Virus record (IMG/VR): IMGVR_UViG_3300030451_006566
Location: 1-28,643 of that record
From: a virus
Reading direction: 5' to 3' (one strand)
Length of the DNA stretch: 28,643 nt
Below the pieces are notes generated by a model. It made no database searches, was not told where the DNA came from, and saw nothing but the letters and a program-made list of their open reading frames with translations. The position numbers and the translations under genes were made by a program. Shown in pieces: positions 3,191 to 24,800 of this stretch. The number at the start of each line of letters is the position of its first letter. Position 1 is the stretch's first letter.

Positions 3191-3220
3191 AAAATAGGGA
3201 TAGCAACCCCTCAAAAAGTT

Positions 3221-3240: not shown

Positions 3241-3244
3241 CAAA

Positions 3245-3453: not shown

Positions 3454-3855
3454 ATGGCAATTCAGAGGATATCAAGGGTATTTAAGGACATTAATTTGTC
3501 TTTTGAGCCACATCCTGTGACAAAAGACTTACAAGTACTTAAAAATGAGAACGCAATTCGTCGTTCTGTGAGAAATATTGTCGAAACCATCCCAACAGAG
3601 AGATTTTTTAACTCTTTGTTGGGTTCTGACGTAAGAAGCAGTCTATTTGAATTTGTTGATTTTGGTACAGCATCTGCAATTCAAGATCAAATTCAAATTG
3701 CAATTGAAAATTTTGAAGAAAGAGTCGAAAATTTGATCGTTGAAGTAAATCCAGCACCAGATAATAATTCTTTCAATGTTACAGTCATATTTGATATCAT
3801 TGGTCAAGAGTTTCCAACACAAGAATATTCATTCCTCTTAGAGGCAACAAGATAA
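3454..3855 (+). CDS. 25: Baseplate wedge subunit gp25
   Basis: This 133-residue protein is about the size of T4 gp25 (132 residues) and belongs to the gp25/lysozyme-like family found in all contractile injection systems. The family core is visible: ENAIRRSVRNIVETIPTERF (32-51), the segment that contacts gp6 and the sheath initiator, followed by GSDVRSSLFEFVD (57-69). The C-terminal half is a beta-rich end with SFNVTVIFDI. It helps close the wedge around the hub and connects to the tail tube/sheath start. It directly follows an exact late promoter, and its stop is one base before the gp6 start, as in a translationally coupled late operon. Confidence 0.92.
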   Translation: MAIQRISRVFKDINLSFEPHPVTKDLQVLKNENAIRRSVRNIVETIPTERFFNSLLGSDVRSSLFEFVDFGTASAIQDQIQIAIENFEERVENLIVEVNPAPDNNSFNVTVIFDIIGQEFPTQEYSFLLEATR

Positions 3856-3856
3856 A

Positions 3857-5749
3857 ATGCCTTTTACAAAGTATACAAATCTAGATTTTGATCAGATAAA
3901 GACTTCTATCAAAGACTATCTCCGTGCAAACTCTACGTTTACGGATTTTGACTTTGAGGGATCAAATTTTTCTGTTTTAATTGATACATTAGCATATAAC
4001 TCTTATATTACCGCATTCAACTCTAACATGGTTGTGAATGAATCCTTTTTGGATTCTGCTACATTAAGAGAGAATGTAGTATCTCTTGCAGGAAATATCG
4101 GATATTTACCACGATCTAGAACTGCATCAAAAGCTCAAATATCTTTTAATGTAACAACAAACGTAGATACCCCCACGTTAACCCTTAAGGCTGGAATAGT
4201 ATGTGTGGGTAATGCCAATGACTCCTCGTATACATTTGCTATTCCTGAAGACATAATAGCAAATGTAGTTGATGGTTCTGCATCATTTAATAATATCGAT
4301 GTATTTCAAGGTATATTTCTAACAAAACAATTTCTTTATGATGGATCTTTAGATCAGAGATTTATTTTAAATAACTCTTTCATTGATACATCAACTATTA
4401 GAGTTTATATTAGTAAATCTCAAACCACAAGAGGTATTGAGTACTCTTTGTCTGAAAATATTTTTGATATTACCAACAATTCAAGAATATTTTTTATTGG
4501 TGAAATACAAGATGAAAAATATGAATTAAGATTTGGTGATGGAATTATAGGAAAGAAACTTGGAGAAGATAATGATGGCAATTATATCAATGTAGATTAT
4601 ATTATAACTGATGGTAAAGATGGAAATGGTGCAAGTAATTTTTCTTTTTCTGGAACTTTAGTATCCGCATCTGATTCTATCATAGATCCGGGAAATATTA
4701 TCATCACAACGAATCAGGCATCTAATAATGGTGGTAATATTGAACCTATAGATTCTATAAAGTATTATGCTCCAAGATTATATTCTTCTCAATATAGAGC
4801 AGTTACATCCAGAGACTACGAAGCTATAATTAAAAAAATATATCCAAATACAGAGTCTGTTTCTGTTGTTGGTGGAGAGCAACTTGATCCTCCGCAGTTT
4901 GGAACAGTTCAAATAAGTATCAAACCTAAAAACGGAAGTTTTGTTTCTGATTTTAATAAAGATCAAATTTTATCAAAAATTAAACAATATTCAGTATCTG
5001 GAATCAATCAAAAAATAACAGATCTAAAAATTCTTTATGTTGAATTAAATAGTTCGATTTATTATAATTATTCTTTAATATCAAGTCCAAATTCACTTAA
5101 AACATCTGTAATAAACTCACTTGAAAAATATTCAAAGTCCGTAGATTTAAATAAGTTTGGAGGAAGATTTAAATATAGTAAAGTTCAACAAATTATTGAT
5201 AATACTGACACTTCTATCACATCCAATATAACTAAAATTACCATACGCAGAGATTTGAAAGCTGTCTTGAATTCACCTGTTCAATATGAATTATGTTATG
5301 GTAATAGATTTCACGTTGAATCGGAAGGTAAGAATATAAAATCTACAGGATTTAAAATTTTAGGTGAGTCCTCCACTGTATATCTCACAGACGTGCCAAA
5401 TGCTGATAGAACTTCTGGTATTTTATCATTATTTAAAATTGTCAATGGAAGTCCTATCACAGTCGGAAATGAAGTAGGAACAGTTGATTACGAAAAAGGT
5501 GAACTTATTTTTGGACCTTTAAATATTACTGAAACAGAAGTTTCTGGTAGTGTTGTAGAAATTCAAGCATTCCCTGAATCAAATGACGTTGTTGGTTTGA
5601 GAGATTTATATATCTCCCTAAGTATTCCAAAAAGTGAGATAAATATGATAAGAGACGTAATTGCATCTGGTGATGAGATATCAGGAACCAGATTTGTCAG
5701 TGATTTTTACACATCAAGTTATTCAAACGGTAGCCTAGTAAGAAAGTAA
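3857..5749 (+). CDS. 6: Baseplate wedge subunit gp6 (J-like family)
   Basis: This 630-residue protein is close to the length of T4 gp6 (660). The N-terminal helical part (about 10-90) contains GSNFSVLIDTLAYNSYI (35-51) and LRENVVSLAGNIGYLP (70-85), the most recognisable signature of gp6/phage P2 gpJ-like baseplate proteins. A central J-like region near 305-365 has PRLYSSQYRAVTSRDYEAII and GGEQLDPPQFGTVQISIKP. The gp6 dimers form the ring that binds the wedge to gp25 and gp53 around the hub. The gene is followed one base later by the giant gp7-like gene, matching the T4 gene order 6-7-8. Confidence 0.92.
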   Translation: MPFTKYTNLDFDQIKTSIKDYLRANSTFTDFDFEGSNFSVLIDTLAYNSYITAFNSNMVVNESFLDSATLRENVVSLAGNIGYLPRSRTASKAQISFNVTTNVDTPTLTLKAGIVCVGNANDSSYTFAIPEDIIANVVDGSASFNNIDVFQGIFLTKQFLYDGSLDQRFILNNSFIDTSTIRVYISKSQTTRGIEYSLSENIFDITNNSRIFFIGEIQDEKYELRFGDGIIGKKLGEDNDGNYINVDYIITDGKDGNGASNFSFSGTLVSASDSIIDPGNIIITTNQASNNGGNIEPIDSIKYYAPRLYSSQYRAVTSRDYEAIIKKIYPNTESVSVVGGEQLDPPQFGTVQISIKPKNGSFVSDFNKDQILSKIKQYSVSGINQKITDLKILYVELNSSIYYNYSLISSPNSLKTSVINSLEKYSKSVDLNKFGGRFKYSKVQQIIDNTDTSITSNITKITIRRDLKAVLNSPVQYELCYGNRFHVESEGKNIKSTGFKILGESSTVYLTDVPNADRTSGILSLFKIVNGSPITVGNEVGTVDYEKGELIFGPLNITETEVSGSVVEIQAFPESNDVVGLRDLYISLSIPKSEINMIRDVIASGDEISGTRFVSDFYTSSYSNGSLVRK

Positions 5750-5750: not shown

Positions 5751-8700
5751 ATGATACAAACTGGAATTGAATCTAGAGTCAAGATTCAGGATATTGTTGC
5801 AAATCAATTACCAGAGTTTGTTTTGGATGAAAGTCCCAAAACAATAGACTTTTTAAAGCAATATTATATTTCTCAAGAATATCAAGGTGGTCCAGTTGAT
5901 ATTAGTGATAATTTAGATCAATATTTAAGGGTAGATAATTTAAAACCAGAAGTTATTGTTGATAGTGTATTATTAACTAATGATATAACTTCTAGTGATA
6001 CAATAATTCAAGTTTCAAGTACAAAAGGATTTCCTAATCAATATGGTCTTTTAAAGATAGATGAAGAAATTATTACCTATACTGGAATAACAACTAATTC
6101 TTTTACAGGATGTATTCGTGGTTTTAGTGGAATTTCTGAATTAAATCAGGAATCTAATGATGATTTAGTATTTTCTACTTCAACTGCGTCACAACATACT
6201 TCAAATACTGATGTTAAAAATTTAAGTTCTTTATTTTTAAAAGAATTTTATAAAAAATTAAAAACAACTTTTACTCCAGGATTAGAAAATATTAAATTTG
6301 CTGACGAAATTGATGCTAGTAATTTTATAAAAAGAGCTAAAGATTTCTATGCATCCAAGGGGACAGATGAGGCAATAAAAATTCTTTTCAAAGTTATTTT
6401 TGCAGAGTCTCCGTCTATCGTAAATTTAGAGAATTATCTTGTTAAACCCTCATCTGCAAACTATGTCAGACGAGAGGTTGTGGTAGCAGAAGTAGTCTCT
6501 GGAGAACCACTTAGAATAATTGGAGAGACACTCGTAAAAACTACAGATGAAAACACAAAAGCTTCTATCTCATCGGTTGAACCTTTTACAAGAAAGGGAA
6601 AAACTTTTTATGTAATTGAATTTTATGTCAGTAATGATGGAAGATCTTCTGTAGAAGGTAACTTTGTTATCACACCTAACACAAAATTAACTGAAACTGC
6701 ATCCATTGGAGATTCTATTATAAATGTTGATTCAACTCTCAGTTTTCCAGAATCTGGAAATTTAGTTTCTGGTAATAATACGATTTCATACACCGGAAAA
6801 AGTGTTAATCAATTTTTTGGATGCACTGGCATTTTATCCACATTAAATTCGGCATCAAATATCAGATCAAATGATACTTATTTTTCTTATGAAAATGGTG
6901 ATCTCAATAAAAAAGTAGAAATTATTATTCTTGGAGTAATTGATGATATAAAAGAAAAAAACGAAGATTTTAAAGTCAGTGAAGGTGATATAATCACAAT
7001 AAAAAATTTTGGTGATAAAATTGAAAATAATCGTTCAAATTGGAAAGAAATTTTTGCAAATTCTTTAATATACAATACAAGTGCAAGATATGAAATATTA
7101 GATAATAGTTCAAATAAGTTATCTTCTCCGATTGATAGATCAAGTTTAAAGGTAGGAGATGAAGTTGAAATATTAACTAGAGGAAATCAAAATCCTATAT
7201 TTTCCTCAAACCCCATTTATATTCTAAGTATTGATAAAGAACAAAATACTTTAACTTTAGAAAATAGACCAAATTTGGGGGAAAATCAAAAATATGATAT
7301 TAGAAGAAAATTAAATAAAACAAAATCTTCTGGATTTGAATTTGAATCAAATTCGGTTATATCAGATATTCTGAATCTTTATGTTGATGATGATGAATAT
7401 GCTTACATTGCTTCAAATTCTTTACCATCAATAACCAGAAATGATTTTTCAGTTAATGATTATAGGTTAGATATTCAAGCAAATGTTAAAACAATTAGCA
7501 TTTCAAGCACAACTAATTTATCTGATTTTTCTGATGAGGTTTATAATTCAATTATTGTAAGTGATGTTCCTTTTTTAACTGGTGATGTAATTTTTTATGA
7601 TCCCGAAGAAGTTCCTTTGGTTGGATTAGTTACCGGAACATATTTTGTAGAAAAAGTATCAAATACTAAGTTCAAACTATATGGATCACGATCACTGATT
7701 TCATCTGGAAATAATTTAACATTTACACCACCACTAACAGGAATAGGAACTCATACTTTTACTTTAAATTCTCAAAAAGATTCCGTACTCGGAATACAAA
7801 AGATTTTAAGAAAAATACCTTTAGAAAAAAATATACAGTTGGGAAGTGAAGAAACAGTTCCTGGAACAACAGGAATATTGATAAATGGTGTTGAAATTCA
7901 AAATTATAAATCAAGTGATGTAGTATATTTTGGACCAATTGAAAGTGTTGAAGTTTTATCGGGTGGAGAAAATTTTGATGTTATTAATATTCCAAAAATA
8001 GAAGTTTCTGCTGGTATTGGTACATCTTCAGTATTGGCAAAAATTCAACCTGTAATTAGTGGAAAATTTGAAAAAGTTTATATTGATTCTCAAGATTATG
8101 ATATTGACAAAATTGTATCTGTTGAAATTTCAGGTGGAAATGGAAAAGGAGCAGTTATTGAACCCGTTTTAGTCAATAAACCAAGAAGTGTTTTATTTAA
8201 TGCAGATGAATCAACATCTGGAGGTGGTGTTGATTTATCAACTAATCAGATTTCATTTTTAACTGATCATAATTTTGTCAACGGACAACAAGTAATTTAT
8301 AATTCATTAGGTAATGAACCTATATTCATCGGAGATGGATCCTATAATTTTGGATTACCAGACAATTCATCATACTTTGTCGGAGTCACCAATAATAAAA
8401 CAATTAAATTATATTATAATTTAAATGATCAACAGTCCGAAAACAATCCTGTTGGAATTTTTACAGGATCCTTAGGAAGTCATAGATTTTCAACTGTAAT
8501 TACAAAAAAACAAATAGATTATGTAAAAATTATTGACGGTGGAGAAGGATATACAAATAGAAAGTTGGTTGTAAAATCTTCAGGTATATCAACTACAGAA
8601 AATACAGTAAACTTTAAAAATCATGGATTCAATGATGGAGAATTAGTTGATTATAATTATGAAGTTTCCGAGATTTCAGGAATCTCTACAACAAATCAAT

Positions 8701-11700
8701 ATTATATTTTAAAAATAAATGATGATTCATTTAGATTATGTGATGCTGGTGTTGCTGGAACCATAACCTCAAATTATGACAGAAAAAATTATGAAAAGTT
8801 TAATTCAACAGGATCTGGATATCAATATTTTTCATATCCTGAAATTTCAGTTTCAATAAAATATTCCACAATAGGTATAGGTACAACTACACAAGAAAAA
8901 AAGGAGTTAGTAGCAACTCCTGTTGTTAAGGGACAAATCATAGATGGATACGTATATGAGTCCGGAACTGGATATGGATCAACAATTATAAACTATGAAG
9001 ATAAACCAACTTTAACAATTCAGAACGGTAAATTTGCTCAACTGACACCTATTGTTGTAGATGGTAGGATTACTAACGTCTCTGTCAGTTATCAAGGAAT
9101 TGAATATAATTCAGTTCCTGACTTAATAGTGTCTGGTTCTGGTATTGGAGCGGAATTAAGGGCTGTAATTGATAATGGTAGAATAAGTGAGGTCATAGTA
9201 TTGAATACTGGTATTGGTTATTCTTCATCAAATACTAGTATACAAGTTGTTTCATCCGGAAAAAATGCAATCATTGATCCTCAAATTAGAAAATTAACAG
9301 TTAATGATAATTCTGATAGATTTTCTACTGGAGAAGTTTTAAAACTAGGAAAAGATAAACTTCAATATTCCATATCAAAATATTTTGAATCTTTAAGAGG
9401 TTCTTTCTTAGAAGATGGATCTTTATCTGGAATAATTGGATGGGCATATGATGGAAATCCAATTTATGGACCATATGGATATGTTGATCCAGGTAATATA
9501 TCTTCAGGATTAAAAACATTAAATTCTGGATATGTTCTTGATATTACAAATGTTACGGATAGACCTTCAGGTTTTCAAGATGGATTTTTTATTGAAGATT
9601 ATAAATTTGATAATAGTGGAGATCTTGATGAATATAACGGAAGATATGAAAAAAATGACGAATTTCCTAATGGAGTATATGCATATCATGCAACGATAGA
9701 TGAATTTCCATATTTTATAGGTAATAAATATCGATCAAAATTAATCTCTGATTCAAATCTCAACCAATCATTTGATTTTAACAATTCTAACTTATTAAGA
9801 AATACTTTTCCATATAAAGTATCTGATAATAATGCAGATTATGATTTTATAAATGAAACAAGTGATGTTTTAGATCAAAAAATAGAAGTATTATCAGTTA
9901 CATCAGGTCCTATAGAATCAGTTGAAATACAAAATTCTGGTGACAATTACAAAGTTAATGATAAATTAATTTTTGATAATGAAAATACATCTGGAAACGG
10001 TTTAAATGTAAATGTAAAATCTATTAAGGGAAAAAATATTGTTGATGTAAATACAAACTCAGTTTTATTATCAGATTCTATTTTTACATGGGACTCCTCA
10101 AATAAAATTAAAGTTTCAATTATTCCAAATCATAATCTTTCAAATTTGGATTATGTAACAGTTACAGGTTTCTCAACTATTTTATCTGAATTGAATGGAT
10201 CACATAGAATTTCAGTTTTATCTAATCCAGATGCAAGATGTTTATCGACAATAGCATCTTCATCTTTAGGATTTACAACAGAAATTTATGTTTCCCCCAT
10301 TTCAGATCAAATATCTGTCGGAAGTAGTATTGGTATCGGTACTGAAATATTGAGAGTTATTGGAGTATTTAATAATGATAATATTCTTAGGGTTGAAAGA
10401 GGATTATCAGGAGTATCACATGCAGTTGGATCTGCTGTATCTTTCTTGTCTGATTCATTTGTAATTTCAAAATCTGTTGATAAGTTTACATCAAAAGTTA
10501 ATACCACTAGATTTTTTAATCCAAAAGAATCTATTGGAGTATCTACAATAAGTGGAGTAGGATATAGCACATCATTTATTTTTGGAAATAATACAATAAC
10601 CAAAAGCATTCCATCTAAAAGCATTAGTATTGAAAATCATTCATTTACAACAAATCAATCTGTTGTTTATACTTCTAATGGAACAAATATTTCCGTATCT
10701 ACTGATGGATTAGATTCATCCAAATTTGATCTTCCAACTAATCTTTTTATTGTAAATAGAAATCCAAATCTCATAGGTTTGAAAACTGCAATTGATGGAA
10801 ATGAACTATTCTTCCATACAAATGGAGATGATAATGATGAATATTCACTTGAGTCAAAATATACTCAAATTCTTGGAGATGTTGAAAAAAATGAGGTAAC
10901 AGTCTCTGTTTCCACATCTCATGAACTTCAAAGTGGTGATGATATAACATTAAATATCAAACCAAATCTTTCGGTAGGTATTGGTACTTCAACTGCTGTC
11001 AGAGTTCTTTATAATTCTGAGATTAATGCTATTGTTGTAGATCCTATTGGATTTAATTCTACAGGAATTAATACAATAACAAATGAGGTTACAATTTTAG
11101 ATCATGGTTTAGAAACTGGAAATAAAGTTCTTTATGAGGATAATAATTATAATGAATATTTTGTGTACAAGATCAATAATAATAAATTTAAACTATGTGA
11201 AACATATTTTGATTCTCAACAGAATCCACCAACTGTTGTAAGTTTTGCTAGCACTGGAAGTTCTTCTCAAACAATATCATTAATAAATCCGGAAATTAAT
11301 CTGATTAGAAATAATAATTTAGTATTTGATTTATCGGATTCTTCTTTAACTGGATATGAATTTAAACTTTATAAGGATCCTAAATTTGAAAATGAGTTTA
11401 TCTCTACTGGATCTACGAGTAATTTCTTAATATCCGAAATTGGATCTCCAGGTCTTTCTAGTACATCATCTTTAACTTTAAATTATATTTCTAACATTCC
11501 AGAGGAACTTTACTATACCATTGAAAAAAATGGAGTTTTAGTCAATCCGGATATTGATACAAAAAATAATTCAAAAATTAAATATATTGATAGTAAGTAT
11601 AATAATACTTATAGTATAACTGATGTAGAAACGACTTCTTTTAAAATTAATTTACAACAAAAACCAGAAAAACTATCGTATAGTTCAGCAGAATGTGATA

Positions 11701-14700
11701 ATTTGAATTATTTTACATCATCATCTTTTGCATCAGGACCAGTAAATTCATTTAATATTTTATCATTTGGATCAGGATACAAAGACCTACCAAAACTTAA
11801 ATCGGTAGAAACGACTGATGGTGTTGATTTAATCGTAAATTGTAAGTCCAATTTGATTGGATTGATCAATGAAAAAAATATTATAAACAACAGATTTACT
11901 TATTCTCCAGATAAAACATTAAGACCCCAAGCCAATGTATCTCCAAATATTGAATTAAAAGATTTTAATACGATAAATGATATTTTAATCATTAGTAGTG
12001 GTGAGGGATACGTAACACCACCATTATTAAAACTAATTAATTCTTCTACAAGAGAAACTATTGACTCTGGATTGATAAACTTAAATTTGACAGGATCTGC
12101 CATATCTTCAATTGATGTAGAAGTAGAACCCGTTGGTCTTCCTGACGAATCGGTTGAAATTTTTGCTACTAATAATACTAATGGAGTATCTGTTATAGAG
12201 GTTGAATCCTCAAATTCTGGTATATTTACATGCACAATATCAACTCCAGGTATTGGAAATACTTTTCCATTCCAACCTTTTAATATTGGAGACAAAGTTT
12301 ATGTTGAAGGAATTGTAAAAAATAGTGTTCATGGTACAGGGTTTAACTCCGAGGACTATGGTTTCAAATTCTTTGACGTAAGTAATTATTTTAAAACAGG
12401 AATCAATGATAAAGTTGAACTAAACGTCTCTGGTTTATCGACAAATACTGGTATAGCCAATACAGTTCAAAATTATTCGGGTGTTATTATTAATAAAAAT
12501 GAATATCCTGAATTCAAAGTAATTCAAAAAGAATCTAAGTTTCTTATAGGAGAATCTATATCATCTAATGGTGTGATAAGAGATTTAGTGGTCACAGAAA
12601 ATATAGGTAATGGGTTAAAGGTTTTTGGAAATTATAAATTATCCATTGGAGAAAAAATTAAAGGAATTGAATCAGGATCTGAAGGTACTATCAACTCACT
12701 CAACTTAAATGAAGCTATTTTTGACGTAAACTTTTCAAATTTAAAAGATATCGGATGGAATACTGAAATAGGTAAGTTGAGTGAAGACTACCAAGTAATT
12801 CAAGATAATGATTATTATCAAAACTTATCATATTCAGTAAAAAGTTCAGTAACATATAAAGATCAACAAGCACCCGTTGAAAGTTTAGTTCACACTAGTG
12901 GATTGAAAAATTTTGCAGATACCGGTATAACATCTTCAGTGAGTGCTGGTTTAGACGATACTAAGGACGGATTTATTGCCATATATGATTTAATCTCGCA
13001 ACAACGAGTTGACACTATTAACAATTTTGATAATGTTTTTGATGAAGATATTGTTAATTCAACATCAAAGTTTTTGAAAATGGAGAACGTTAAACTCACT
13101 AATTTTAATGAATTTAAAAATTTAAATGTATTAAAAATTGATGATCTTAGTAAAAGGTTTTCCAATTCAGAAGCAGAAAATACTGAATTTTTGACAGTTG
13201 AAGAAGTAGATGATAAAACTTATTATAATTATTTGTTTAAAGTTACATCTACAGATGAAAGAGAAATTCAGTTCACTGATCTTACTATTTTAAGTAATGG
13301 AATTGAGACAGTTATTGTTGAAAACGAATCTTTACATAATTCTAATATTCCATTAGGAAATTTTGACATAGATGAAAATGAGTTTTCAGAAACATTTTTA
13401 AAATTTTTCCCAGAAGATCCATTTAATAAAGATTATGATGTTAAATTAATTCAGCAAACATTTAATGATACTTTCTCTGGTGTTGGAACTCAATCGGTAG
13501 GATTTACAAGTCTAACAGGATCCTCTGTTTCGGGAATAGGAACTACTACGATATGTTCTTTCAATTCGGATCATTTTGAGTCAATTTATATAAATGTACA
13601 AGTCTTGAATGAAGTAACAGATGACATGAATTACGTGAGATTATATGTTGCTCATGATGGTTCAAACTCATACATGTCCGAATATTTTATTGATAATAAT
13701 TTAAGTGCAACGACTGGTAACCAAATAGGAACATTTTCTTCTGATCTGAATAATGGAGTATTATCTATTATACATGAAAATGTAGATTCTGATCAACTTA
13801 CAATTAGATCTAATATCGTAGGATTTGGGTCAACCGCTCTAGGAATAGGAACTTATAGATTCAAATCATCTGAACAATCAGACGGTCAAGAAAGAAGTGT
13901 AGTTTACGATTCTGATTTTAAAACCACAGTATCTTTAGCTTCGACCATTATAAATTCCTTAGACAAGAGTTTATTCAATTCTTCAAAATCTTTAGTTCAA
14001 GTAAGTGCAGGATCAACAAAAGCACTTCACCAAGTTATGATGGTATTTGATGGTATTGATGTTTATACTCAACAATTACCATTCCTTTCAGTATCTAATA
14101 CAGATACTTTAGATAGTGTATCTGGTATAGGAACATTTGGTGCTAGTATTTCTGGATCAAATATTATTTTAGAATTTTATCCAGATGATCAAAATCAACA
14201 AATTGATATAGAAATTTTCAATAAATCTTTCTATTCTAGATTGGATGTGGCAAATGACTATAATGATTTAACATATGGTTCAGTTGTTGAAAAAGTTGAT
14301 GAAAAATTCTATAATGCTATTAATGGTGATAGAATTAATAGAACCAATTTTGCATTAACATCAAATAATATTCCAATTTTCTCTAAAACATTTAATCCAA
14401 ATTCTGTTTCCTTAGCATCCACATCTGGATTATTTTCAATAGATGATCATTTCTTTATGACCGGTGAAGAATTGATCTACACTCCAGATTCTACAATTGT
14501 TGGTGTTGGAACCAGTTCAATGATGATAAATGCAACTGATGTTTTACCATCTAGAGTATATGCTATAAAAGTGACAGAAGATACTTTTAAAGTTGCAATA
14601 ACAACGACCGCAGCTGCAAATGGTATTGGAGTAACTTTTACATCTCTTGGTGAGGGAAATGCTCATAGATTTACAATGAAGGAGAAAAATTCAAAGTGCA

Positions 14701-17354
14701 TAATCGATGTTGATGAACTTGTTCAATATCCATTAAGATTTACTGGAACTACACATAGTCTAGTGGAAAATTTATCGATTGGTGCAACAATTGCATCTTT
14801 AAGTGGAATATCTTCAATAAATCCAACCGATCTATTGTTGATAGATGATGAATACATGAAAGTAACTAACGTTGGATTGGGAACAACTAGTACAGGTCCT
14901 ATTATTAAAACTGGTAATATAAAACTTGTTGAACTTGATAGAGGAGTTGTTGGATCCTCCGCAAGTGCTCACTCAAACTCATCAACAGTATCAGTTTTTA
15001 GAGGATCATTTAATATAGTTGATGATGAAATACATTTTTCAGAAGCTCCAAGAGGAAATCCTCAAATCGATAGGACAGAATCAAATTTAAATTTTGAAAC
15101 ATCTTCATTTGGTGGTAGAGTATTTTTACAATCAAATTATGATAATAATAAAATTTATGATGATATATCCAATCAGTTTACAGGAATAGGAAGAACATAT
15201 AGTTTAACAGTTGGTGGATCTAATACAACTGGACTTGGAACCGATGGTGGAAGAGGACTTGTTTTCATCAACAACATTTATCAATCTCCCAAAACTGATA
15301 ATAATCCTACTAGGTTCAATTATGAAATAGTATCTACAGCATCAGGAATAACAACTGTTGAGTTTTCTGGTATAACAAGATTTGAAGATCCTACAGAATA
15401 TATTGTTTCTGATTATGATATAAATCAAAATGAAAGTCCAAGAGGGGGTATCATTGTTTCATTCGGATCTACACCTGGACTTGGATTTGCTCCACTTGTG
15501 GGTGCTTCTGTAACTGCAGTTGTTGGTGCTGGAGGATCTATTGTATCTGTCGGACTGGGAACTACCGACAATCTTGGATCTGGATATAATGGATTGGTCT
15601 CTATTGGAGTGACTGTTTTTGAAGAAGGTCATTCTGGAACTCCGGCAGAAATAACGGCAACAGCAAATGTTGGTGCTGGTGGAACTTTAACTTTCAATAT
15701 TGTAAATGCAGGAACAGGATACACCAGTCCATCCATATTCGTATCGGATCCATCATATGAAAATCTACCTGTAATTGGTATTTCAAGAGAAGGTATTGGA
15801 TCGACTACAGAAACTGGAGTTGGACTATTAATGAATGTAATCGTTGGTGGTTCTACAACTACAGGTATTGGATCAACGTATTTTGAGGTAAAAGAGTTCA
15901 AATTCTCAAGACCAGGATATGGATTTAAAAGAGGTGATGTATTTAAACCAATTGGTATTGTAACTGATTCAACATTATCTTCTCCAATTTCAGAATTTGC
16001 CATAGATGTGGTCGATACATATTCTGATAATTTCGCAGCTTGGGAATTTGGTGAACTTGATTATATTGATTCAGTTAAAAATTTACAGGATGGATCAAGG
16101 GTAAGATTCCCATTAAACTACAATGGAGAACTGTTAAGTTTTGAGGCTAGACGAGGTTCACCTATTTCAGAAAATATGAATAATGTTTTAATTATCTTCA
16201 TAAACGGAGTAATTCAGGAACCAGGAAAAAATTATATTTTCAGAGGTGGTACTTCTTTTGTATTTACCAAAGCACCTTTACCAGAAGATGAAGTTGAAAT
16301 TTATTTCTACAAAGGCGTTGACGGAGTTGATTCTATTTCAAATGATAATCAGAGACCAACAATAAAAGTTGGTGATACACTTCAGGTTATTAGTAATAAT
16401 AATATTGAAAATACGATAACTCAAGATAAACGAATTGCATTTAATATTGCTTTTTCGGATAAAGTTGAAACTAACAAATATTTTGGACAAGGCATTGACT
16501 TGGTGAATCCAAAACCTGTTTCTTGGACAAAGCAAAAAACTGGTAGAAAGGTAAATGGAGATTTTGTAAGTAAATCAAGAGATGTGTTGGAAGCTTTAAT
16601 TTTTCCAACATCTAAAATTATTAAAGATATTTCTATAACTGATACTGATATATTCGTTGATAATGCTGAACTCTTTGGATATGAAGATAATAGAAATCTC
16701 ATAGAAGCTCCCTTAGTCCCATATCCTGATGGATCCAGACCATTTGACGCTTTGATTATTAATGGAATTTCTACAACTGGATTTACAACAGATTTAATAG
16801 AAAAAGTAACTGGATTTAACAACGTAGAGGGATTCTCAGGAATTATAACTGGCATAACAACCACTGCAGGAACAGGAGGAAATCCACTAGCAATTCAGTT
16901 TACTGTTATTGATGACAGCACAGTCACCGGATTTGTTGGATTGGAAACCGGTTATCCAATCTATATCTATGATACTCAAATCGGTAGTGGAGTTACGTCC
17001 ATCAATTCATCTAATTCTGAAGTCGTTGGTATTGGTACAACTTGTGTTGACAATATCTATTACATCTCAGAATATTCATTCACTTCTTTAAATGTAAATA
17101 CATTTATTGGAATCTTAACTTGCAATGTTCATTCTAACACAAATATTTCCGGCATTTCATCATCTGGAAATATTTTAAATCCAATCGGAAAATATTCATG
17201 GGGTAGATTATCCGGAGCATCTAGATCATCAAATCCAATATCTATTGGAGTCACTGGAAATATTATTTCTGGATTAACAACATTTCCAACAATTCAAAGA
17301 AGAGGTGGTGTCAATATAAGAGAAACTGGAGCACTTCCTAAAATTGAAAAATAA
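5751..17354 (+). CDS. Giant modular baseplate protein with gp7-like N-terminus
   Basis: This single uninterrupted frame encodes 3867 residues, more than three times T4 gp7 (1032). It fills the gp7 position between gp6 and gp8. Residues 185-225, including RAKDFYASKGTDEAIKILF, closely resemble the C-terminal wedge-core part of T4 gp7 as I recall it. The rest is beta-rich. It has a repeated anchor module (about 84-130, 317-367, 1507-1570, 3010-3085), an HGF-tGxxVxY module (six copies), GxGY strand modules in several clusters, a YHYH domain (1225-1328), and a fibre-like FINGVIQEPG module (about 3478-3522) with a relative near 3170. At least 16 G(I/V/L)G(T/S) turns mark junctions. No signal peptide or membrane segment is seen. 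It probably replaces gp7 as wedge initiator and supplies peripheral spikes. Function beyond the N-terminus is inference. Confidence 0.85.
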   Translation: MIQTGIESRVKIQDIVANQLPEFVLDESPKTIDFLKQYYISQEYQGGPVDISDNLDQYLRVDNLKPEVIVDSVLLTNDITSSDTIIQVSSTKGFPNQYGLLKIDEEIITYTGITTNSFTGCIRGFSGISELNQESNDDLVFSTSTASQHTSNTDVKNLSSLFLKEFYKKLKTTFTPGLENIKFADEIDASNFIKRAKDFYASKGTDEAIKILFKVIFAESPSIVNLENYLVKPSSANYVRREVVVAEVVSGEPLRIIGETLVKTTDENTKASISSVEPFTRKGKTFYVIEFYVSNDGRSSVEGNFVITPNTKLTETASIGDSIINVDSTLSFPESGNLVSGNNTISYTGKSVNQFFGCTGILSTLNSASNIRSNDTYFSYENGDLNKKVEIIILGVIDDIKEKNEDFKVSEGDIITIKNFGDKIENNRSNWKEIFANSLIYNTSARYEILDNSSNKLSSPIDRSSLKVGDEVEILTRGNQNPIFSSNPIYILSIDKEQNTLTLENRPNLGENQKYDIRRKLNKTKSSGFEFESNSVISDILNLYVDDDEYAYIASNSLPSITRNDFSVNDYRLDIQANVKTISISSTTNLSDFSDEVYNSIIVSDVPFLTGDVIFYDPEEVPLVGLVTGTYFVEKVSNTKFKLYGSRSLISSGNNLTFTPPLTGIGTHTFTLNSQKDSVLGIQKILRKIPLEKNIQLGSEETVPGTTGILINGVEIQNYKSSDVVYFGPIESVEVLSGGENFDVINIPKIEVSAGIGTSSVLAKIQPVISGKFEKVYIDSQDYDIDKIVSVEISGGNGKGAVIEPVLVNKPRSVLFNADESTSGGGVDLSTNQISFLTDHNFVNGQQVIYNSLGNEPIFIGDGSYNFGLPDNSSYFVGVTNNKTIKLYYNLNDQQSENNPVGIFTGSLGSHRFSTVITKKQIDYVKIIDGGEGYTNRKLVVKSSGISTTENTVNFKNHGFNDGELVDYNYEVSEISGISTTNQYYILKINDDSFRLCDAGVAGTITSNYDRKNYEKFNSTGSGYQYFSYPEISVSIKYSTIGIGTTTQEKKELVATPVVKGQIIDGYVYESGTGYGSTIINYEDKPTLTIQNGKFAQLTPIVVDGRITNVSVSYQGIEYNSVPDLIVSGSGIGAELRAVIDNGRISEVIVLNTGIGYSSSNTSIQVVSSGKNAIIDPQIRKLTVNDNSDRFSTGEVLKLGKDKLQYSISKYFESLRGSFLEDGSLSGIIGWAYDGNPIYGPYGYVDPGNISSGLKTLNSGYVLDITNVTDRPSGFQDGFFIEDYKFDNSGDLDEYNGRYEKNDEFPNGVYAYHATIDEFPYFIGNKYRSKLISDSNLNQSFDFNNSNLLRNTFPYKVSDNNADYDFINETSDVLDQKIEVLSVTSGPIESVEIQNSGDNYKVNDKLIFDNENTSGNGLNVNVKSIKGKNIVDVNTNSVLLSDSIFTWDSSNKIKVSIIPNHNLSNLDYVTVTGFSTILSELNGSHRISVLSNPDARCLSTIASSSLGFTTEIYVSPISDQISVGSSIGIGTEILRVIGVFNNDNILRVERGLSGVSHAVGSAVSFLSDSFVISKSVDKFTSKVNTTRFFNPKESIGVSTISGVGYSTSFIFGNNTITKSIPSKSISIENHSFTTNQSVVYTSNGTNISVSTDGLDSSKFDLPTNLFIVNRNPNLIGLKTAIDGNELFFHTNGDDNDEYSLESKYTQILGDVEKNEVTVSVSTSHELQSGDDITLNIKPNLSVGIGTSTAVRVLYNSEINAIVVDPIGFNSTGINTITNEVTILDHGLETGNKVLYEDNNYNEYFVYKINNNKFKLCETYFDSQQNPPTVVSFASTGSSSQTISLINPEINLIRNNNLVFDLSDSSLTGYEFKLYKDPKFENEFISTGSTSNFLISEIGSPGLSSTSSLTLNYISNIPEELYYTIEKNGVLVNPDIDTKNNSKIKYIDSKYNNTYSITDVETTSFKINLQQKPEKLSYSSAECDNLNYFTSSSFASGPVNSFNILSFGSGYKDLPKLKSVETTDGVDLIVNCKSNLIGLINEKNIINNRFTYSPDKTLRPQANVSPNIELKDFNTINDILIISSGEGYVTPPLLKLINSSTRETIDSGLINLNLTGSAISSIDVEVEPVGLPDESVEIFATNNTNGVSVIEVESSNSGIFTCTISTPGIGNTFPFQPFNIGDKVYVEGIVKNSVHGTGFNSEDYGFKFFDVSNYFKTGINDKVELNVSGLSTNTGIANTVQNYSGVIINKNEYPEFKVIQKESKFLIGESISSNGVIRDLVVTENIGNGLKVFGNYKLSIGEKIKGIESGSEGTINSLNLNEAIFDVNFSNLKDIGWNTEIGKLSEDYQVIQDNDYYQNLSYSVKSSVTYKDQQAPVESLVHTSGLKNFADTGITSSVSAGLDDTKDGFIAIYDLISQQRVDTINNFDNVFDEDIVNSTSKFLKMENVKLTNFNEFKNLNVLKIDDLSKRFSNSEAENTEFLTVEEVDDKTYYNYLFKVTSTDEREIQFTDLTILSNGIETVIVENESLHNSNIPLGNFDIDENEFSETFLKFFPEDPFNKDYDVKLIQQTFNDTFSGVGTQSVGFTSLTGSSVSGIGTTTICSFNSDHFESIYINVQVLNEVTDDMNYVRLYVAHDGSNSYMSEYFIDNNLSATTGNQIGTFSSDLNNGVLSIIHENVDSDQLTIRSNIVGFGSTALGIGTYRFKSSEQSDGQERSVVYDSDFKTTVSLASTIINSLDKSLFNSSKSLVQVSAGSTKALHQVMMVFDGIDVYTQQLPFLSVSNTDTLDSVSGIGTFGASISGSNIILEFYPDDQNQQIDIEIFNKSFYSRLDVANDYNDLTYGSVVEKVDEKFYNAINGDRINRTNFALTSNNIPIFSKTFNPNSVSLASTSGLFSIDDHFFMTGEELIYTPDSTIVGVGTSSMMINATDVLPSRVYAIKVTEDTFKVAITTTAAANGIGVTFTSLGEGNAHRFTMKEKNSKCIIDVDELVQYPLRFTGTTHSLVENLSIGATIASLSGISSINPTDLLLIDDEYMKVTNVGLGTTSTGPIIKTGNIKLVELDRGVVGSSASAHSNSSTVSVFRGSFNIVDDEIHFSEAPRGNPQIDRTESNLNFETSSFGGRVFLQSNYDNNKIYDDISNQFTGIGRTYSLTVGGSNTTGLGTDGGRGLVFINNIYQSPKTDNNPTRFNYEIVSTASGITTVEFSGITRFEDPTEYIVSDYDINQNESPRGGIIVSFGSTPGLGFAPLVGASVTAVVGAGGSIVSVGLGTTDNLGSGYNGLVSIGVTVFEEGHSGTPAEITATANVGAGGTLTFNIVNAGTGYTSPSIFVSDPSYENLPVIGISREGIGSTTETGVGLLMNVIVGGSTTTGIGSTYFEVKEFKFSRPGYGFKRGDVFKPIGIVTDSTLSSPISEFAIDVVDTYSDNFAAWEFGELDYIDSVKNLQDGSRVRFPLNYNGELLSFEARRGSPISENMNNVLIIFINGVIQEPGKNYIFRGGTSFVFTKAPLPEDEVEIYFYKGVDGVDSISNDNQRPTIKVGDTLQVISNNNIENTITQDKRIAFNIAFSDKVETNKYFGQGIDLVNPKPVSWTKQKTGRKVNGDFVSKSRDVLEALIFPTSKIIKDISITDTDIFVDNAELFGYEDNRNLIEAPLVPYPDGSRPFDALIINGISTTGFTTDLIEKVTGFNNVEGFSGIITGITTTAGTGGNPLAIQFTVIDDSTVTGFVGLETGYPIYIYDTQIGSGVTSINSSNSEVVGIGTTCVDNIYYISEYSFTSLNVNTFIGILTCNVHSNTNISGISSSGNILNPIGKYSWGRLSGASRSSNPISIGVTGNIISGLTTFPTIQRRGGVNIRETGALPKIEK
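6303..6425 (+). other. gp7-homologous wedge segment inside the giant protein
   Basis: Residues about 185-225 include FYASKGTDEAIKILFKVIF (199-217). I recall a matching FYSTKG-x(5)-KFLFKVLY stretch in the C-terminal part of T4 gp7, where it interacts with gp6 and gp53. This makes the giant protein the gp7 counterpart, with the homologous part moved to the N-terminus. The comparison is from memory and needs a profile search. Confidence 0.55.
8931..9290 (+). repeat. GxGY beta-module array in the giant protein
   Basis: Residues 1061-1180 hold three consecutive copies of one short unit. Each has an aliphatic strand ending in GxGY or a near variant (SGTGYGSTI, YQGIEYNSVP, NTGIGYSSSN), a loop, then a second strand leading to DGRITNVSV or NGRISEVIV. 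Diverged copies occur near 7942, 8518, 9910, 11755, 11980 and 15530, and in gp8 and the 2399-residue protein. Confidence 0.6.
9423..9734 (+). other. YHYH domain embedded in the giant protein
   Basis: Residues 1225-1328 match the YHYH domain pattern. The first signature is IIGWAYDGNPIYGPYGYVDP (1228-1247). The second is DEYNGRY followed by GVYAYHATIDEFPY (1308-1321), where the name-giving Y-H-Y-H is Y1310-A-Y1312-H1313. Free-standing YHYH proteins are bacterial and eukaryotic extracellular proteins of unclear function. Its location in a baseplate protein suggests a surface-binding role, which is inference. Confidence 0.75.
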
Positions 17355-17387: not shown

Positions 17388-18893
17388 ATGGCTGCATTCG
17401 TAACAGATCAATTTAGAATACTGAATGCTGGTTCTTTTGTAGAGTCTATCAGTAATAATTCTTACTACGTTTTTTTGGGGTTGTCAAATCCGGATGCATC
17501 TGGGTTTGGTAGATTAAATGACTGGAATTCAAGTACAACGAATAATCCCGTTGATAACTTTCAATATCTGAGTCATTATAGAGACACTAGTTTATTTGGT
17601 AAAAAAATAACTACAGAAAATGCAAGAAGAGTAATAAGAAAAATTGAATGGGTTTCAAATAATCAATATGATATGTATCGTCATGATTATGGACAAAACA
17701 ATCAAGCACCATTTAGTAAAGCTTTAAAATTATATGAAGCAGATTATTATATTATTACTAGTGAATTTAAAGTTTATATCTGTATAGAAAATGGAACATC
17801 GGGATTAAATCCCACTGTACCTAGATCAACATTTGAACCCACACATACCGATATAGAACCTGTCCTATATGCAGACGGATATAAATGGAAATATTTGTTT
17901 AGAGTTTCTCCTGCCGATGTTATAAAATTTGACTCAACAGAATTTATAATTGTACCAAATGATTGGACAACCACTGTGGATAGTGATATTAAAATTATTA
18001 GGGATGGTGGTAATTCGGAAGTTAATAATAATCAAATAAAAACCGTATATATTGAAAATGGTGGTACAAATTATAGTGATGCTACCCATTCTATTCTAGG
18101 TGACGGTACCGGTGGAGAAGTTTCTATAGAAACAACTAATGGTAAAATAACAAATGTTATTGTAACTCAAGGTGGAAAGGGATACACTTACGGAATAATT
18201 GATTTAAGCACTAATTCAGGTGCAGGATCAAAATTAATACCAATAATTCCTCCTTCGAAAGGTCATGGATCTAACATTTATCAAGAATTAGGTACTGATA
18301 AAGTTCTATTATATGCAAGATTTGATGAATCCACTAAAGATTTTCCTATAGACACTAAATTTTCTCAGGTTGGTGTAATTAAAAATCCAGAAGAGTTTGC
18401 AGGAACTGGAGTCACTTTCACAGGTAACACATTTTCTTCATTATTTTCGGTTGGATTAACTACTTCTAGAACTGTCACTATTGGAGAAGAAATAACTCAA
18501 AATCAAGGAAATAATGTTGTTGCAAAAGGATATGTTGCTTCATTTGATTCTGAGACAAAGATTTTAAAATATTATCAAGATAGATCATTATGTTTTGGTA
18601 ACGAAGTTGATCAAACTCAAAGTTTGCTTACATCAAATATTATTTCTTTCAATAATACTTCAAATATTGCGTTTACACAATCTGGTGGAGCAAGTAGTAT
18701 TGATTCTACATTAAATGGAAGTGTAATATTAATTAATTCTAAACAAGTTAATTTAGGATCTACTTTTGAAAACGGTCTTTCAAATCCCGAGATAAATAAA
18801 AAGACAGGGGATATAATTTACATTGATAATAGACCCATTGTTCAAAGAGACTCTAGACAAAAAGAAGACGTTAAAATCATTCTGGAATTCTAA
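17388..18893 (+). CDS. 8: Baseplate wedge subunit gp8, enlarged
   Basis: This 501-residue protein is a gp8 homologue; T4 gp8 has 334 residues. Diagnostic stretches are the N-terminal NNSYYVFLGLSNPD (23-36), a central DGYKWKYLFRVSPADVIKF (163-181) followed by the IIVPNDW segment, and the C-terminal GDIIYIDNRPIVQRDSR (474-490), which matches the gp8 end pattern GEMIYMENRPP. The excess length is explained largely by an insertion around 216-290 that contains GxGY modules (ENGGTNYSDATHSI and TQGGKGYTYGI) like those of the giant gene just upstream. The gp8 dimers bind gp7 and gp10 in the T4 wedge. The gene follows an exact late promoter and precedes the DUF4815 gene by six bases. Some annotations would label it only structural protein. 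Confidence 0.88.
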   Translation: MAAFVTDQFRILNAGSFVESISNNSYYVFLGLSNPDASGFGRLNDWNSSTTNNPVDNFQYLSHYRDTSLFGKKITTENARRVIRKIEWVSNNQYDMYRHDYGQNNQAPFSKALKLYEADYYIITSEFKVYICIENGTSGLNPTVPRSTFEPTHTDIEPVLYADGYKWKYLFRVSPADVIKFDSTEFIIVPNDWTTTVDSDIKIIRDGGNSEVNNNQIKTVYIENGGTNYSDATHSILGDGTGGEVSIETTNGKITNVIVTQGGKGYTYGIIDLSTNSGAGSKLIPIIPPSKGHGSNIYQELGTDKVLLYARFDESTKDFPIDTKFSQVGVIKNPEEFAGTGVTFTGNTFSSLFSVGLTTSRTVTIGEEITQNQGNNVVAKGYVASFDSETKILKYYQDRSLCFGNEVDQTQSLLTSNIISFNNTSNIAFTQSGGASSIDSTLNGSVILINSKQVNLGSTFENGLSNPEINKKTGDIIYIDNRPIVQRDSRQKEDVKIILEF

Positions 18894-18899: not shown

Positions 18900-21800
18900 A
18901 TGGCACAAAAAACCGACTTAAATATCAGTCCATATTATGATGACTTTGATGAAAGTAAAAATTTTTATAAGGTTTTATTTAAACCAGGATTTCCAGTTCA
19001 GGCTAGAGAACTAACGACTCTTCAGTCTATTTTACAAAATCAAGTCGAATCTTTTGGTAGTAATATTTTTAAAGAAGGTTCCATGGTTTTACCTGGAGCT
19101 ATAACATTTGACAATGATTATTCTGCCGTAAAATTAAATTCAATAAATTTAGGCACAGACATTTCATTATACATCAAAAATTTTATTGGAAAAACTATAA
19201 CAGGACAAAATTCTGGAGTAAAAGCAACAGTTAAGGATGTAGTCTTTCCAAGTGATAGTGATTTAATAAAATACATAACAATTTATGTAAAATATTCTCA
19301 AGCAGGAGATAATTCAGAGACTACATCATTTGAAGATGGTGAATCACTTTTTGCTGATGAAAATGTTTCATATGGTAGTATTACTATTCCATCGGGAACT
19401 GTTTTTGCAACAACTATTGAGGTAGATTCTACAGCAATAGGTTCTGCTGTATCCATTGATAATGGAGTGTATTTCGTAAGAGGACATTTTGTTGACGTAT
19501 CAAAAGAAACCCTCATATTAGATTATTATAATAATAATTCATCATATAGAGTTGGTTTAAAAGTAACAGAAGCAACTGTTAATGCTAAAGATGATGATAC
19601 ATTGTTTGACAATGCAAAAGGATTTACTAACTTCGCTGCACCAGGGGCAGATAGATTAAAAATTTCATTAAGTTTGACAAAAAAATCATTAACTGATTTT
19701 AACGATACCGACTTTATAGAAATACTTAGAGTTGATGATGGAAAAATAAAAAAAGTAATTGATAAAACAGTTTATAATGTAATTAGAGATTACATCGCTG
19801 AAAGAACTTTTGATGAATCTGGACATTATACTGTTGATGAATTTGTATTAAATGTTTCAAATTCATTGAATGATAGAATTGATAATGATGGATTATTTTT
19901 AGAAAACGAAACTACAGATGAAGGAAATAATCCTTCTGATGATCTAATGTGTGTTCAGGTATCACCTGGCAAAGCATATGTTGCTGGATATGATGTTGAA
20001 CTAGATTCAACTGCAACAATTGATGTTGAAAAACCAAGGGATACTGAAAATGTAGACAGTATTACTGTTCCTTTCGAAATGGGACATCTTTTGAGAGTTA
20101 ATAATGTTGCTGGTGCTCCGAAAGAAAACGAAACTTTAACTTTAAAATCACAATTTAAAGCAGATACCGGTGGTCAAAAGGTTATTGGACAAGCTAGAGT
20201 TTATACATTTAATTTAACAGATGCTGCATATTCAAATGCAGAATCGCAATGGGATCTATATCTTTATGATATTCAAACCTATACATCATTAACATTCAAT
20301 AGAAGTGTAACATCATCTGAGATTCCTGCAACATCCTTTATACAAGGCAAAAGCAGTGGAGCAAGTGGTTTTGTAGTTTCTGCAGTAAATGGTTCATCTT
20401 TAGACATTTATCAAACTTCCGGAACTTTTGTAGAAGATGAGCAGTTAATTGTCAATGGAGTTGATGTATCATTATCCTTATCTAGTTTTGTTGTTTATTC
20501 TACCAGAGACATTAAATCTGTAGCACAAAATGCCTCTGGATTTCCTGTATTTCAAGCAGATACTGTATTAACTAGAAAACAAATCGACGGAATTAGTCAA
20601 GCAAACTTTACAAACTCTACAGGCATCTTCACAAGTCCCGGAAAACTGTTCACTGATATTAAAGTTGGCGATGTTATCAGATATCAAGATGGATCTAATT
20701 TAAGATATAATAGAGTTAGTTCTGTGAATGGAAATTTAACTTCCATAACAGTTAGAGCAATAACTGATGTAACTGGAGTTTTTGTTGGAGGAAAGGCAGG
20801 AGACGGAACATACAATATTGAACTCGCGGTTCCAGAATTAAAAAATAATGATAATGGATTCCTCTATGCAAATCTTCCCGATTCTAACATCTCATCAGTT
20901 GATTTATCAGATTCTCAACTTTCAATTACTAGACAAATTACTGGAGAATCAACTGACCAGACTGGACAACTGACGTTTGATTTGTCATCAGTATCCGGAA
21001 TAACAAATGCATTTTTTGACTCATTTGATCAAGAAAGATATTCTGTTCACTATAATAATGGAGAAATTGGTGCAATAACCTCTGATGCTTTCACACTAAA
21101 TGGGAATACAGTAACTATCGAAGGATTACTTGGATCTCAATCTAATATAGTTGTTAACACTACCCTTAAAAAGAACGGTATTCAAAGTAAAATTAAAGAA
21201 TATAGTAGAAGCTCTGTCAATATTGTAAACTTATCAACACTAGCAAGATCTGGTACAGCAGCGAGTGATTCAATTAATGATGGATTAACTTACAATCAGT
21301 TTTATGGTTTGAGAGTTCAAGACGATAAAATATCTTTGAACGTACCTGATGTGGTAAAAGTTTTAGCAGTTTACGAATCAACTGATACGGCAGATCCTAT
21401 TTTAGATAGAGTTCAATTTTCACCAATATCACAAATTGATGATGATGCCATTATTGGTGAGAATATCATAGGTTCAGATAGTGGTGCATTAGCCAGAATA
21501 GTTTTAAATTCATCATCTACTCCTTCAGTTCCTTCAAACAATATTGGAATTGTTTATCTCAATGATAAAAAATTGACTGTTGGAGAAACAGTAACTTTTA
21601 AAGAATCTGGTATAATTTCTACAGTAGAAACATTGACATTAGGAAAATTTAAAAATATAACAAATAATTTTAATTTAGATAAAGGTCAAAGAAATGATTA
21701 CTATGATTATTCAAGATTAGTTAGAGTAGGATCTCAAGTTCCAGAAAGAAGACTTCTGGTAGTATATGATCATTTTACTGTTCCATCATCAGATAATGGA

Positions 21801-24800
21801 GATGTATTTACTGTTCTCAGTTATGATTCGGATAGATTTTCTGAAGATATTCCCAACATTGGACCTATTGGATCTAATCAAGTCAGAGCATCTGATACCT
21901 TAGATTTTAGACCAAGAGTTCAAGATTTTACAGTAACAACATCATCTCCATTTGATTTTGCATCAAGGAATTTTGGATCAGATCCAAAATTTACATTAAA
22001 ACCCGGAGAATCATCTTTAATTGGTTATGATTTTTATCTACCTAGAATTGATAAAGTATTTTTGGATAAATTTGGAAGCGTAATTGTAAGAAAAGGAGTT
22101 TCTTCCTTAGAACCGGTTCCACCTATAAATGAAGAAGTTGATTTAATGCAATTAGCTGAGATTCGTCTTCCAGCATATTTGTATGACACAGATGATGTTG
22201 AAATTAGAGCAATTGATAATAGAAGATATACCATGAGAGATATTGGTAATCTTGAAGATAGAATAGAAAATTTGGAAAGATTTACATCTCTAAGTTTATT
22301 GGAAATTAACACAGAATCTTTAAGAGTTGAAGATACTGAAGGAAATAATAGATTTAAAAGTGGAATATTTGTAGATGATTTTACGAATACTTTTTCTTCT
22401 GACAGTAGTTTAACAACTGCAAGTATTGTTAACGGTGAACTAAGACCTCTTGCAATAAGAAATTCACTGCAGCAAAGACCAATTCCATCGTTGGAAATTC
22501 CAGAAAATCAATTGGATTTGTCTCAAGATTATGATTTATTAGATCCAAATGTTCAGAAAACTGGAGATGCTATCACTTTAAAGTATGATTCTGTTGATTG
22601 GATTAATCAATCTTTTGCAACAAGAGTAGAGAATGTTAATCCTTTCCATGTTATAGAATATAATGGAGAGATTCGTCTTTCTCCATCTAATGATACTTGG
22701 GTTAGAACTATTAGAATTCCACCTCGAACAGTTCAAAGAAGTGTTAGAAGAACAATAAGAAAAGAAATCAGATCTCATTCATTAAATTTTAACACTCGTG
22801 TTGAAGTAAGTAGAGAAGTTATCGGTAATAGTACGAGAACCGTTCTTGTCTCTTCTGGTAGAGAAAAATATATTAGGTCAAGAAATGTCTCTTTCTTCGG
22901 AACTCTCTTAAGACCACTTGCAAGACATTATCAGTTTTTAGATAATCACAGCAATCTTGATTTTATACCAAAACTTATAGAAATAGCAAATTCTTCTTCT
23001 TTAGAAAACTATGGATCTTCTAATGGTACATTCCAAACAGGAGAAACTATTAGAGTATTCAGAGGTTCAACAAGAATAGGAACATTTAGATTAGCAACTT
23101 CTAATCATAAGGTAGGACCATTTAATTCACCAATATTTAAATATACAACCAATCCATATGTAACATCAGAATTCATTCCCTCTGGATATAGTCAATCATC
23201 TAAAACAATAAACATCGATTTAAATTCACTATCTGCTGAAGCACAAGGACAATTTAATGGTTATATTGAGAAAGGATGCAAAATTGTTGGTCAAACTAGT
23301 GGTGCAATTGCATATGTAAAAGATCTTAGATTAATTTCTGATATAAATGGAGCATTATTTGGATCGTTTTTTATTAAAAATCCACATGTGAATCCTGCAC
23401 CAAATCCAAGAATTCTTACTGGTAAGAAAACTTATAGATTAAGTAGCAGTTCTACTAATCAAGCTCAACTACCAGGAAGCACTTTAATTTCTGCAGGTAA
23501 TGCAACTTATACAGCAAATGGTATTTTCCGTAGAGTTCAATCTGTTACTACCATAACAACAAGAATAACAACAACAATTACAACAAGAAGAGATCCTCTG
23601 GCACAAACTTTTGTTGTTGGCAGGGATATTGAAGCACCTGATTTTAGTGGTGATAATGATGATGATAATGGTGTATTTTTAACAGAAGTAGATTTATTCT
23701 TTGCATCTAAACCAAGTGGAAATGAACCATTAACTGTTCAAATCAGATCAGTTGAACTTGGCATTCCAACTTTAAATATTATTGGAGAACCAAAAACATT
23801 AGAACCAAGTGAAATAGCAACCTCAAGAAATGCTTCTGTTTCAACAAGAGTAAAATTTAACTATCCAATATATCTTGCTCCAGGGCAAGAATATGCTATA
23901 GTTTTAGTCGCTGCTAATTCTGATCAATACGAAGTTTGGACTGCAAAAATGGGTGAAAGAACAATTGAAACTTTAAATCTTCCTAATTCTGAAGCAGTAA
24001 GATATTCTAGACAATTTGCATTAGGTAGTTTGTTTAAATCTCAGAATGGATCCACATGGTCTCCAGCACAAGAATCTGATCTGAAATTTAAATTATATAA
24101 AGCTAAATTCACAGCAAATAGTGGTATAGTTCACTTTGGAAATCCACCACTTGATGAGGGTAATGGATATGTTTCTGTATTACAAGAAAATGCAATTACA
24201 GTATTACCAAAAAATGCAACCCTTGGTATTACAACAATTAGTTCTGGTGATTCTTTAGTCGGTATCTTAACTACAGGTAGAAGAATTGCGGGAGTGGGTA
24301 ATACTTTTGGAACCATTGTTTCTACAGGAAGTAGTGTTTCTAGTGTTACAACAACTAATGCTGGTCTAAATTATACAACTGGAGTAAGAAGCACAACCAA
24401 TGTATTTGGCAGTGGTTCTGGTTTGCAAGTTAATATTGGCAGTGTTGATCAGTCAGATGGTTCTATTACTGGGATAACTGTTAATAATCCGGGAACTGGA
24501 TATGCGACTGGTGACGTTGTTTCGATTGTGAATGGTTCTACTACTGAAACTGGTAGAGATGCTCTTATTACAGTTACTGCTAGTGGTGATATTGATACTT
24601 TATATCTTACAAATGTTCAGGGATCTATACCAACTGGTAATTTAGTTTATTATGATACAGATACAACAACAGTTTCTCTTGCAAATACCGATGTTCTTAG
24701 TTCTGTTGATGATAGTGGCATTTTCTCAGGAAATTATTTACAGGTTCAACATTTCAATCATGGAATGTATGCTAATAATAATAAATTAAAGTTGGTTGAT

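Follow-up and report, generated by a model that had tools for sequence, protein, structure and literature searches.

The window, that is, the whole stretch of DNA analysed here, comprises 28,643 nucleotides of the viral record IMGVR_UViG_3300030451_006566 (IMG/VR, positions 1 to 28,643) and is a genome fragment; the genes from gp25 to VrlC and the protein segments described below lie on its plus strand. Pfam and PHROG profiles give the gene order gp25-gp6-giant ORF-gp8, with gp25 at 3454..3855 (Pfam GPW_gp25, 3.7e-11), gp6, the expected wedge partner of the giant protein, at 3857..5749 (Pfam Gp6-like_1st, 9e-17; PHROG 219), the giant ORF at 5751..17354 and gp8 at 17388..18893 (Pfam Phage-Gp8, 3.8e-7; PHROG 438, E 1e-150). 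The giant ORF is a single open frame of 3867 aa without interruption, which starts 1 nt past the stop of gp6 (5749), its end lying 33 nt ahead of gp8 (17388). An earlier sequence-only reading of the window had placed this gene in the slot of T4 gene 7 and put its length at more than three times that of T4, and both statements are borne out, since gp6 and gp8 flank the gene and 3867 aa stand against 1032 aa in T4. ORFs of similar length (about 3,690–3,910 aa) were found in 28 other contigs, with about 49–71% identity over the main aligned stretch and many of them aligned over nearly the full length, so the length and frame of the giant ORF cannot be put down to chance or to an assembly artefact.

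Two further genes of the window were also characterised. Downstream of gp8, a separate gene at 18900..26099 encodes a VrlC protein of 2399 aa, identified by tblastn to the annotated VrlC of Syn19 and S-BM1 and by a DUF4815 match (1.8e-63), and the giant ORF is free of VrlC and DUF4815 similarity, these matching the ORF at 18900–26099 instead. Through its DUF4815 region, the VrlC ORF also reaches by tblastn Salmonella/Klebsiella-type phages as well as the tail proteins of Staphylococcus, Listeria and Bacillus myophages. Upstream, a 225-aa ORF at 2513–3190 matches PHROG 3704 ('ferredoxin', E 5.6e-115) and no family in Pfam, and the gene at the equivalent position in S-SKS1 is annotated PurM.

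The family of giant gp7 proteins is already known, and the window gene is a further member of it. PHROG 2885 ('baseplate wedge subunit') is matched with E 0 over residues 2–3268, corresponding to positions 2–3327 of 4179 in the profile, and residues 1–400 used as a query returned 462 phage records, nearly all of them cyanophages and many annotated as 'baseplate wedge initiator' or gp7. The P-SSM2 protein annotated gp7 (YP_214343.1) lies in the same slot, carries both of the gp7 segments described below and is 39% identical over about 3,250 residues, although it has 5195 aa against the 3867 aa of the window protein. Judged by sequence, the virus is a T4-like cyanophage with S-SKS1 among its relatives, and the giant ORF is its orthologue of T4 gene 7, rather than the 'gp7 replacement' that had been proposed. 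The S-SKS1 homologue occupies the same gene position and is 74% identical to the window protein over the first 400 residues, but the reading frames of its record are broken across the giant gene, unlike the single frame in the window. In that record (HQ633071.1, 15001–27387), the start of the giant gp7 is unannotated and four separate frames (707, 1571, 1062 and 592 aa) are present, which suggests either breaks in the deposited sequence or real splitting.

The same slot after gp6 holds this protein in P-SSM2, S-T4, S-PM2, S-CRM01, Melnitz, phiM7 and Ps15, and the length of the slot protein ranges from 503 aa (Ps15) up to 7,312 aa (P-SSM4). According to record coordinates, it has 3048 aa in S-PM2, 3032 in S-CAM1, 4120 in S-SCSM1, 4749 in S-T4, 6376 in Syn33, 6422 in ACG-2014b, 6817 in ACG-2014d and 7312 in P-SSM4; in S-CRM01, the slot is taken by a 'gp7-like' protein of 1454 aa. 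It has been reported that the 6619-aa 'baseplate wedge initiator' S-SZBM1_208 is present in virions, with 71 peptides by mass spectrometry (PMC9146016), and that ORF122 of S-CREM2 (about 1937 aa), located among the wedge genes, was recovered in virion proteomics with 91 peptides (PMC10665884).

The assignment to gp7 rests first of all on the wedge core, which together with the start of the next beta domain occupies residues 158–310 (6222..6680) and matches T4 gp7 723–823. In a single BLASTP comparison, residues 184–223 are 43% identical to T4 gp7 717–758 over 42 columns (E 5e-5). When a profile of residues 152–312 was built with diverse relatives, residues 188–308 aligned with T4 gp7 723–823 at an hhalign E of 1e-10 (3.5e-11 in a second run), the best of 60 column shuffles reaching 0.046 and the reversed profile 0.82; T4 gp6, gp8, gp9 and gp10 gave no comparable match to the same profile. 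The gp7-like stretch that had been recognised from the letters alone at residues 185–225 is thus real, its T4 counterpart does lie toward the C-terminus, and residues 150–260, where a gp7 match had been expected, contain one. As the sole gp7-like part it was an underestimate, because the match runs on to residue 308 and is accompanied by a weak one at about 7–47 and another at 2355–2396.

Several searches that start from known domains or structures were run alongside these profiles. A Pfam scan of the whole giant protein returned YHYH only, so that PF21427 and PF21456 (domains V and VI of T4 gp7) are not among its Pfam matches; these are T4-branch models and are not required of orthologues such as XM1 gp17, and the profile–profile alignment of the core does extend into domain V of T4 gp7. 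PF21427 also gave no match in seven phage records, in a search run without a positive control, and PDB sequence searches with the single sequence or with profiles of the giant protein found nothing relevant. In a Foldseek search with an AlphaFold model of residues 1–620 (mean pLDDT 58), ranks 3 and 4 in the PDB went to the gp7 proteins of a variant of Klebsiella phage KP1 and of T4, with low TM-scores and two unrelated ribosome-processing chains above them, and this ranking may be used as supporting evidence only.

Ahead of the core lies an N-terminal helical segment, residues about 7–60 (5769..5930), which is collinear with T4 gp7 640–680 (the Pfam Gp7_helical region) and is weak when taken alone. 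With about residues 7–47 aligned, it reaches an hhalign E of 0.005 against the T4 family, collinear with the core-bundle helices at T4 643–689. The phage phiM7 provides a bridge, as its residues 10–208 match positions 643–832 of PHROG 964 (E 9e-7). In the AlphaFold model of 1–620, helices are placed at residues 12–60 with low confidence (pLDDT below 50).

The second gp7 segment was found far downstream, at residues 2335–2396 (12753..12938), where hhalign gives a match to T4 gp7 865–899; the segment itself comprises residues 2355–2396 (YYQNLSYSVKSS...LVHTSG). Its profile against the T4 family aligned about 35 residues with T4 gp7 865–899 at E 3.6e-5, where 100 shuffles went no lower than 0.036, and against T4 gp7 alone it gave E 2e-4, with T4 gp6, gp8, gp9 and gp10 at 0.1 or worse. 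An earlier profile, made mostly of close cyanophage sequences, had reached E 0.016 against T4, and the match became clear after distant relatives were added. The same module is common to Melnitz (616–674), phiM7 (936–989), phiM9, Ps15, S-PM2, S-CAM1, P-SSM4 and P-SSM2, the first four being compact relatives that bridge the window protein to T4.

The order from the core to the second segment in the window protein is identical to that in T4, and what differs is the gap between them, which amounts to 127 residues in T4, 309 in Ps15, 440 in Melnitz, 468 in phiM9, 851 in phiM7, 2156 in the window protein and 2279 in P-SSM2. Since the second segment lies so far downstream and the gap has widened, much of the growth is insertion within gp7 and not addition outside it. 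On these alignments, the new material consists of about 2,000 residues inside gp7, a small module (68–155) within the core region and a C-terminal stretch of about 1,470 residues. The earlier picture of a conserved anchor with some 3600 beta residues added outside therefore holds in part: the core is kept and the remainder is mostly beta-rich, but the module at 68–155 interrupts the conserved part and about 2,000 residues are internal.

The inserted material includes repeated modules. The small beta module at residues 68–155 (5952..6215) is inserted between the helical segment and the core, with strands predicted, partly at good confidence; it is missing from phiM7 and Ps15, and at the same insertion site Syn33 has roughly 600 residues, largely of GxGY repeats. 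In self-comparison, residues 68–142 recur as 306–379 (E 1e-8), and this second copy (6666..6887), also predicted to be beta, follows directly after the core. Between the two gp7 segments lies a central block of beta-rich modules, residues about 401–2330 (6951..12740), with GxGY repeats and HGF..YYV repeats. An AlphaFold model of residues 880–1480 (mean pLDDT 56) consists mostly of strands where it is confident, and a fold search with this model against the PDB gave no significant match, the best hits, phage endosialidases at E 0.059, not being counted as evidence. Some of the beta modules are weakly shared by the giant protein with gp8 and VrlC of the same window.

Behind the second segment follows the C-terminal extension, residues 2400–3867 (12948..17351), which is beta-rich in composition. 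Across 29 full-length orthologues, conservation peaks at residues 1–200, with a second peak at about 3001–3400 (0.75–0.78). This latter stretch (window 14751–15950) is the best conserved part outside the N-terminus in the 29 orthologues and belongs to no known family; it is possibly another contact point.

Within the central block, residues 1226–1322 (9426..9716) match the C-terminal half only of the YHYH domain (Pfam PF14240, E 5e-22, profile positions 94–187 of 193). YHYH has been proposed to be a metal-dependent hydrolase with three conserved histidines and an aspartate (PMC7824862). The histidine triad is absent from the window protein, in which a single histidine (1313) occurs within residues 1100–1330; with one histidine and only half of the profile, catalysis by this domain seems unlikely here.

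Compact relatives connect the giant proteins with T4 gp7. The slot protein of Sinorhizobium phage phiM7 has 1006 aa and links both families, matching PHROG 964 (T4 gp7) at E 9e-7 and, through its core, PHROG 2885 at E 1.7e-21. Stenotrophomonas phage Ps15 has a cluster of gp25, gp6, a 503-aa gp7, gp8 and VrlC, and its slot protein matches T4 gp7, the gp7 of a Vibrio phage and the window protein; this compact gp7 (3989–5500 of the examined locus) corresponds to PHROG 26741, which is listed as of unknown function. The giant proteins grade through forms of 503–1,454 aa that bear the same segments, and through the series formed by phiM7 and Ps15 the giant protein is therefore tied to T4 gp7 by more than one motif. 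Ps15 gp7 shares with the window protein the neighbours including VrlC, a core (at 91), a second segment (at 400) and a few GxGY-type modules between them, but it is almost eight times shorter, has no insert between helix and core and has a short C-terminus. T4 gp7 (1032 aa, PDB 5IV5) shares the gp6/gp8 slot and has the helical, core and 865–899 segments in matching order, but it carries about 640 residues in front, has almost nothing between the core and the second segment and is without beta arms of the kind seen in the window protein.

The direction of change along this series bears on the sequence-only reading that the wedge segment changed from a C-terminal to an N-terminal position and persists as an anchor, everything else having been added outside. 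The positions of the core (723–823 of 1032 residues in T4, 188–308 of 3867 here) speak for such a relocation, but Ps15, phiM7, Melnitz and XM1 gp17 all begin with the helical segment followed by the core, and it is T4 and phiM9 that have an extra front, with about 640 and about 255 residues, respectively, ahead of the helical segment and core. Moreover, the second gp7 segment lies downstream in the T4 order, so the order is unchanged and no permutation has taken place. Relocation is thus improbable and the claim of a 'moved' segment is probably backwards: in the simplest reading, drawn from an unrooted comparison, the N-terminal core would be the old state and T4 would have gained its front part.

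The Vibrio phage XM1 supplies a minimal form of the same protein. Its gp17, a T4 gp7 orthologue of 242 aa whose structure has been solved, has the helix-turn-helix of the core bundle at residues 1–48 and binds the tail spike through residues 80–106, inside the first domain, and through the C-terminus at 201–242 (PMC10457771). It resembles the window protein in being a gp7 orthologue with an N-terminal core and extra segments for spike attachment (PMC10457771), and differs in its minimal size, the likeness being drawn from the published description. By analogy, the two spike-binding places of XM1 gp17 may be comparable to the insertion sites of the cyanophage proteins.

Another improbable alternative, rated somewhat below relocation, is that the giant ORF chiefly encodes a fibre or receptor-binding protein which captured a gp7 fragment for use as an attachment domain, and that the true gp7 function resides in some other diverged gene. 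The chain is indeed mostly beta modules, some of them weakly shared with further virion proteins, gp8 and VrlC among them, and a YHYH domain is present, but the gp7 slot is occupied in every relative examined, forms graded from 503 to 1,454 aa carry the same segments, and no other gp7 match exists in complete P-SSM2 and Syn33. For these two genomes, which were covered by the whole-genome search, the T4 gp7 profile hits a single place per genome, which lies within the giant ORF, and a separate gp7 elsewhere, as the earlier reading had considered, was thus not found there; the same profile gave no match at 0.001 in the S-PM2 record. Least credible of all is the view that gp7 is missing in cyanophages and replaced by VrlC, a two-layer-baseplate protein, the giant ORF being another structural protein: a 2020 pelagimyophage study states that T4 gp7 is absent and that VrlC is its substitute in pelagi- and cyanomyophages (PMC7029224), and tblastn with T4 gp7 at 1e-5 gave no cyanophage name among the matches listed, but VrlC homologues match a separate ORF downstream of gp8, Ps15 has both gp7 and VrlC in one cluster, and the giant ORF bears the gp7 core.

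The preferred reading, to which a probability of roughly 0.8 is given, is that the giant protein, as orthologue of the T4 gene 7 product, serves as a wedge scaffold, whose two gp7 segments are accompanied by long beta-rich arms. Orthology, gene order, collinear segments and size range are taken from sequence comparison, and we infer the placement and assembly in the wedge, the return of the chain, the copy number and what the arms do. Through the helices at its N-terminus and the core (about 7–60 and 158–310), the giant protein would link a pair of gp6 copies within the core bundle and the trifurcation and, like T4 gp7 and its orthologues, would nucleate each wedge. The second segment (2355–2396) would be packed into that wedge body too, as its T4 counterpart is, so that the roughly 2,000 residues of beta modules between the segments would exit the wedge and come back as a loop or arm, with the further 1,470 or so residues forming a C-terminal arm. 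These arms would most likely make up the outer part of the baseplate and bear, or touch, fibres and parts that bind the host, like the extra segments of XM1 gp17, and a very large baseplate periphery, as proposed earlier, is plausible. More tentatively, cyanophage gp7 in general may be a split scaffold with its wedge-binding segments about 1,600–2,800 residues apart, in which the chain exits and re-enters the wedge as a giant peripheral arm that may replace several baseplate and fibre-adaptor proteins of T4 (gp9–gp12).

This type of cyanophage is very abundant in the sea, and the literature search found no baseplate structure for a T4-like marine cyanophage. The presence of VrlC as a separate gene in the window, the occurrence of both proteins in Ps15 and the gp7 profile match inside the giant ORF together argue that the 2020 statement of gp7 absence and VrlC substitution (PMC7029224) needs correction, and the two-segment layout accounts for the published view that cyanophages lack gp7. 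The same layout amounts to a testable prediction of the points at which the chain enters and exits the wedge. It also suggests that T4, in which the N-terminal part is long, may be less suitable than other phages as a model for gp7 architecture in general.
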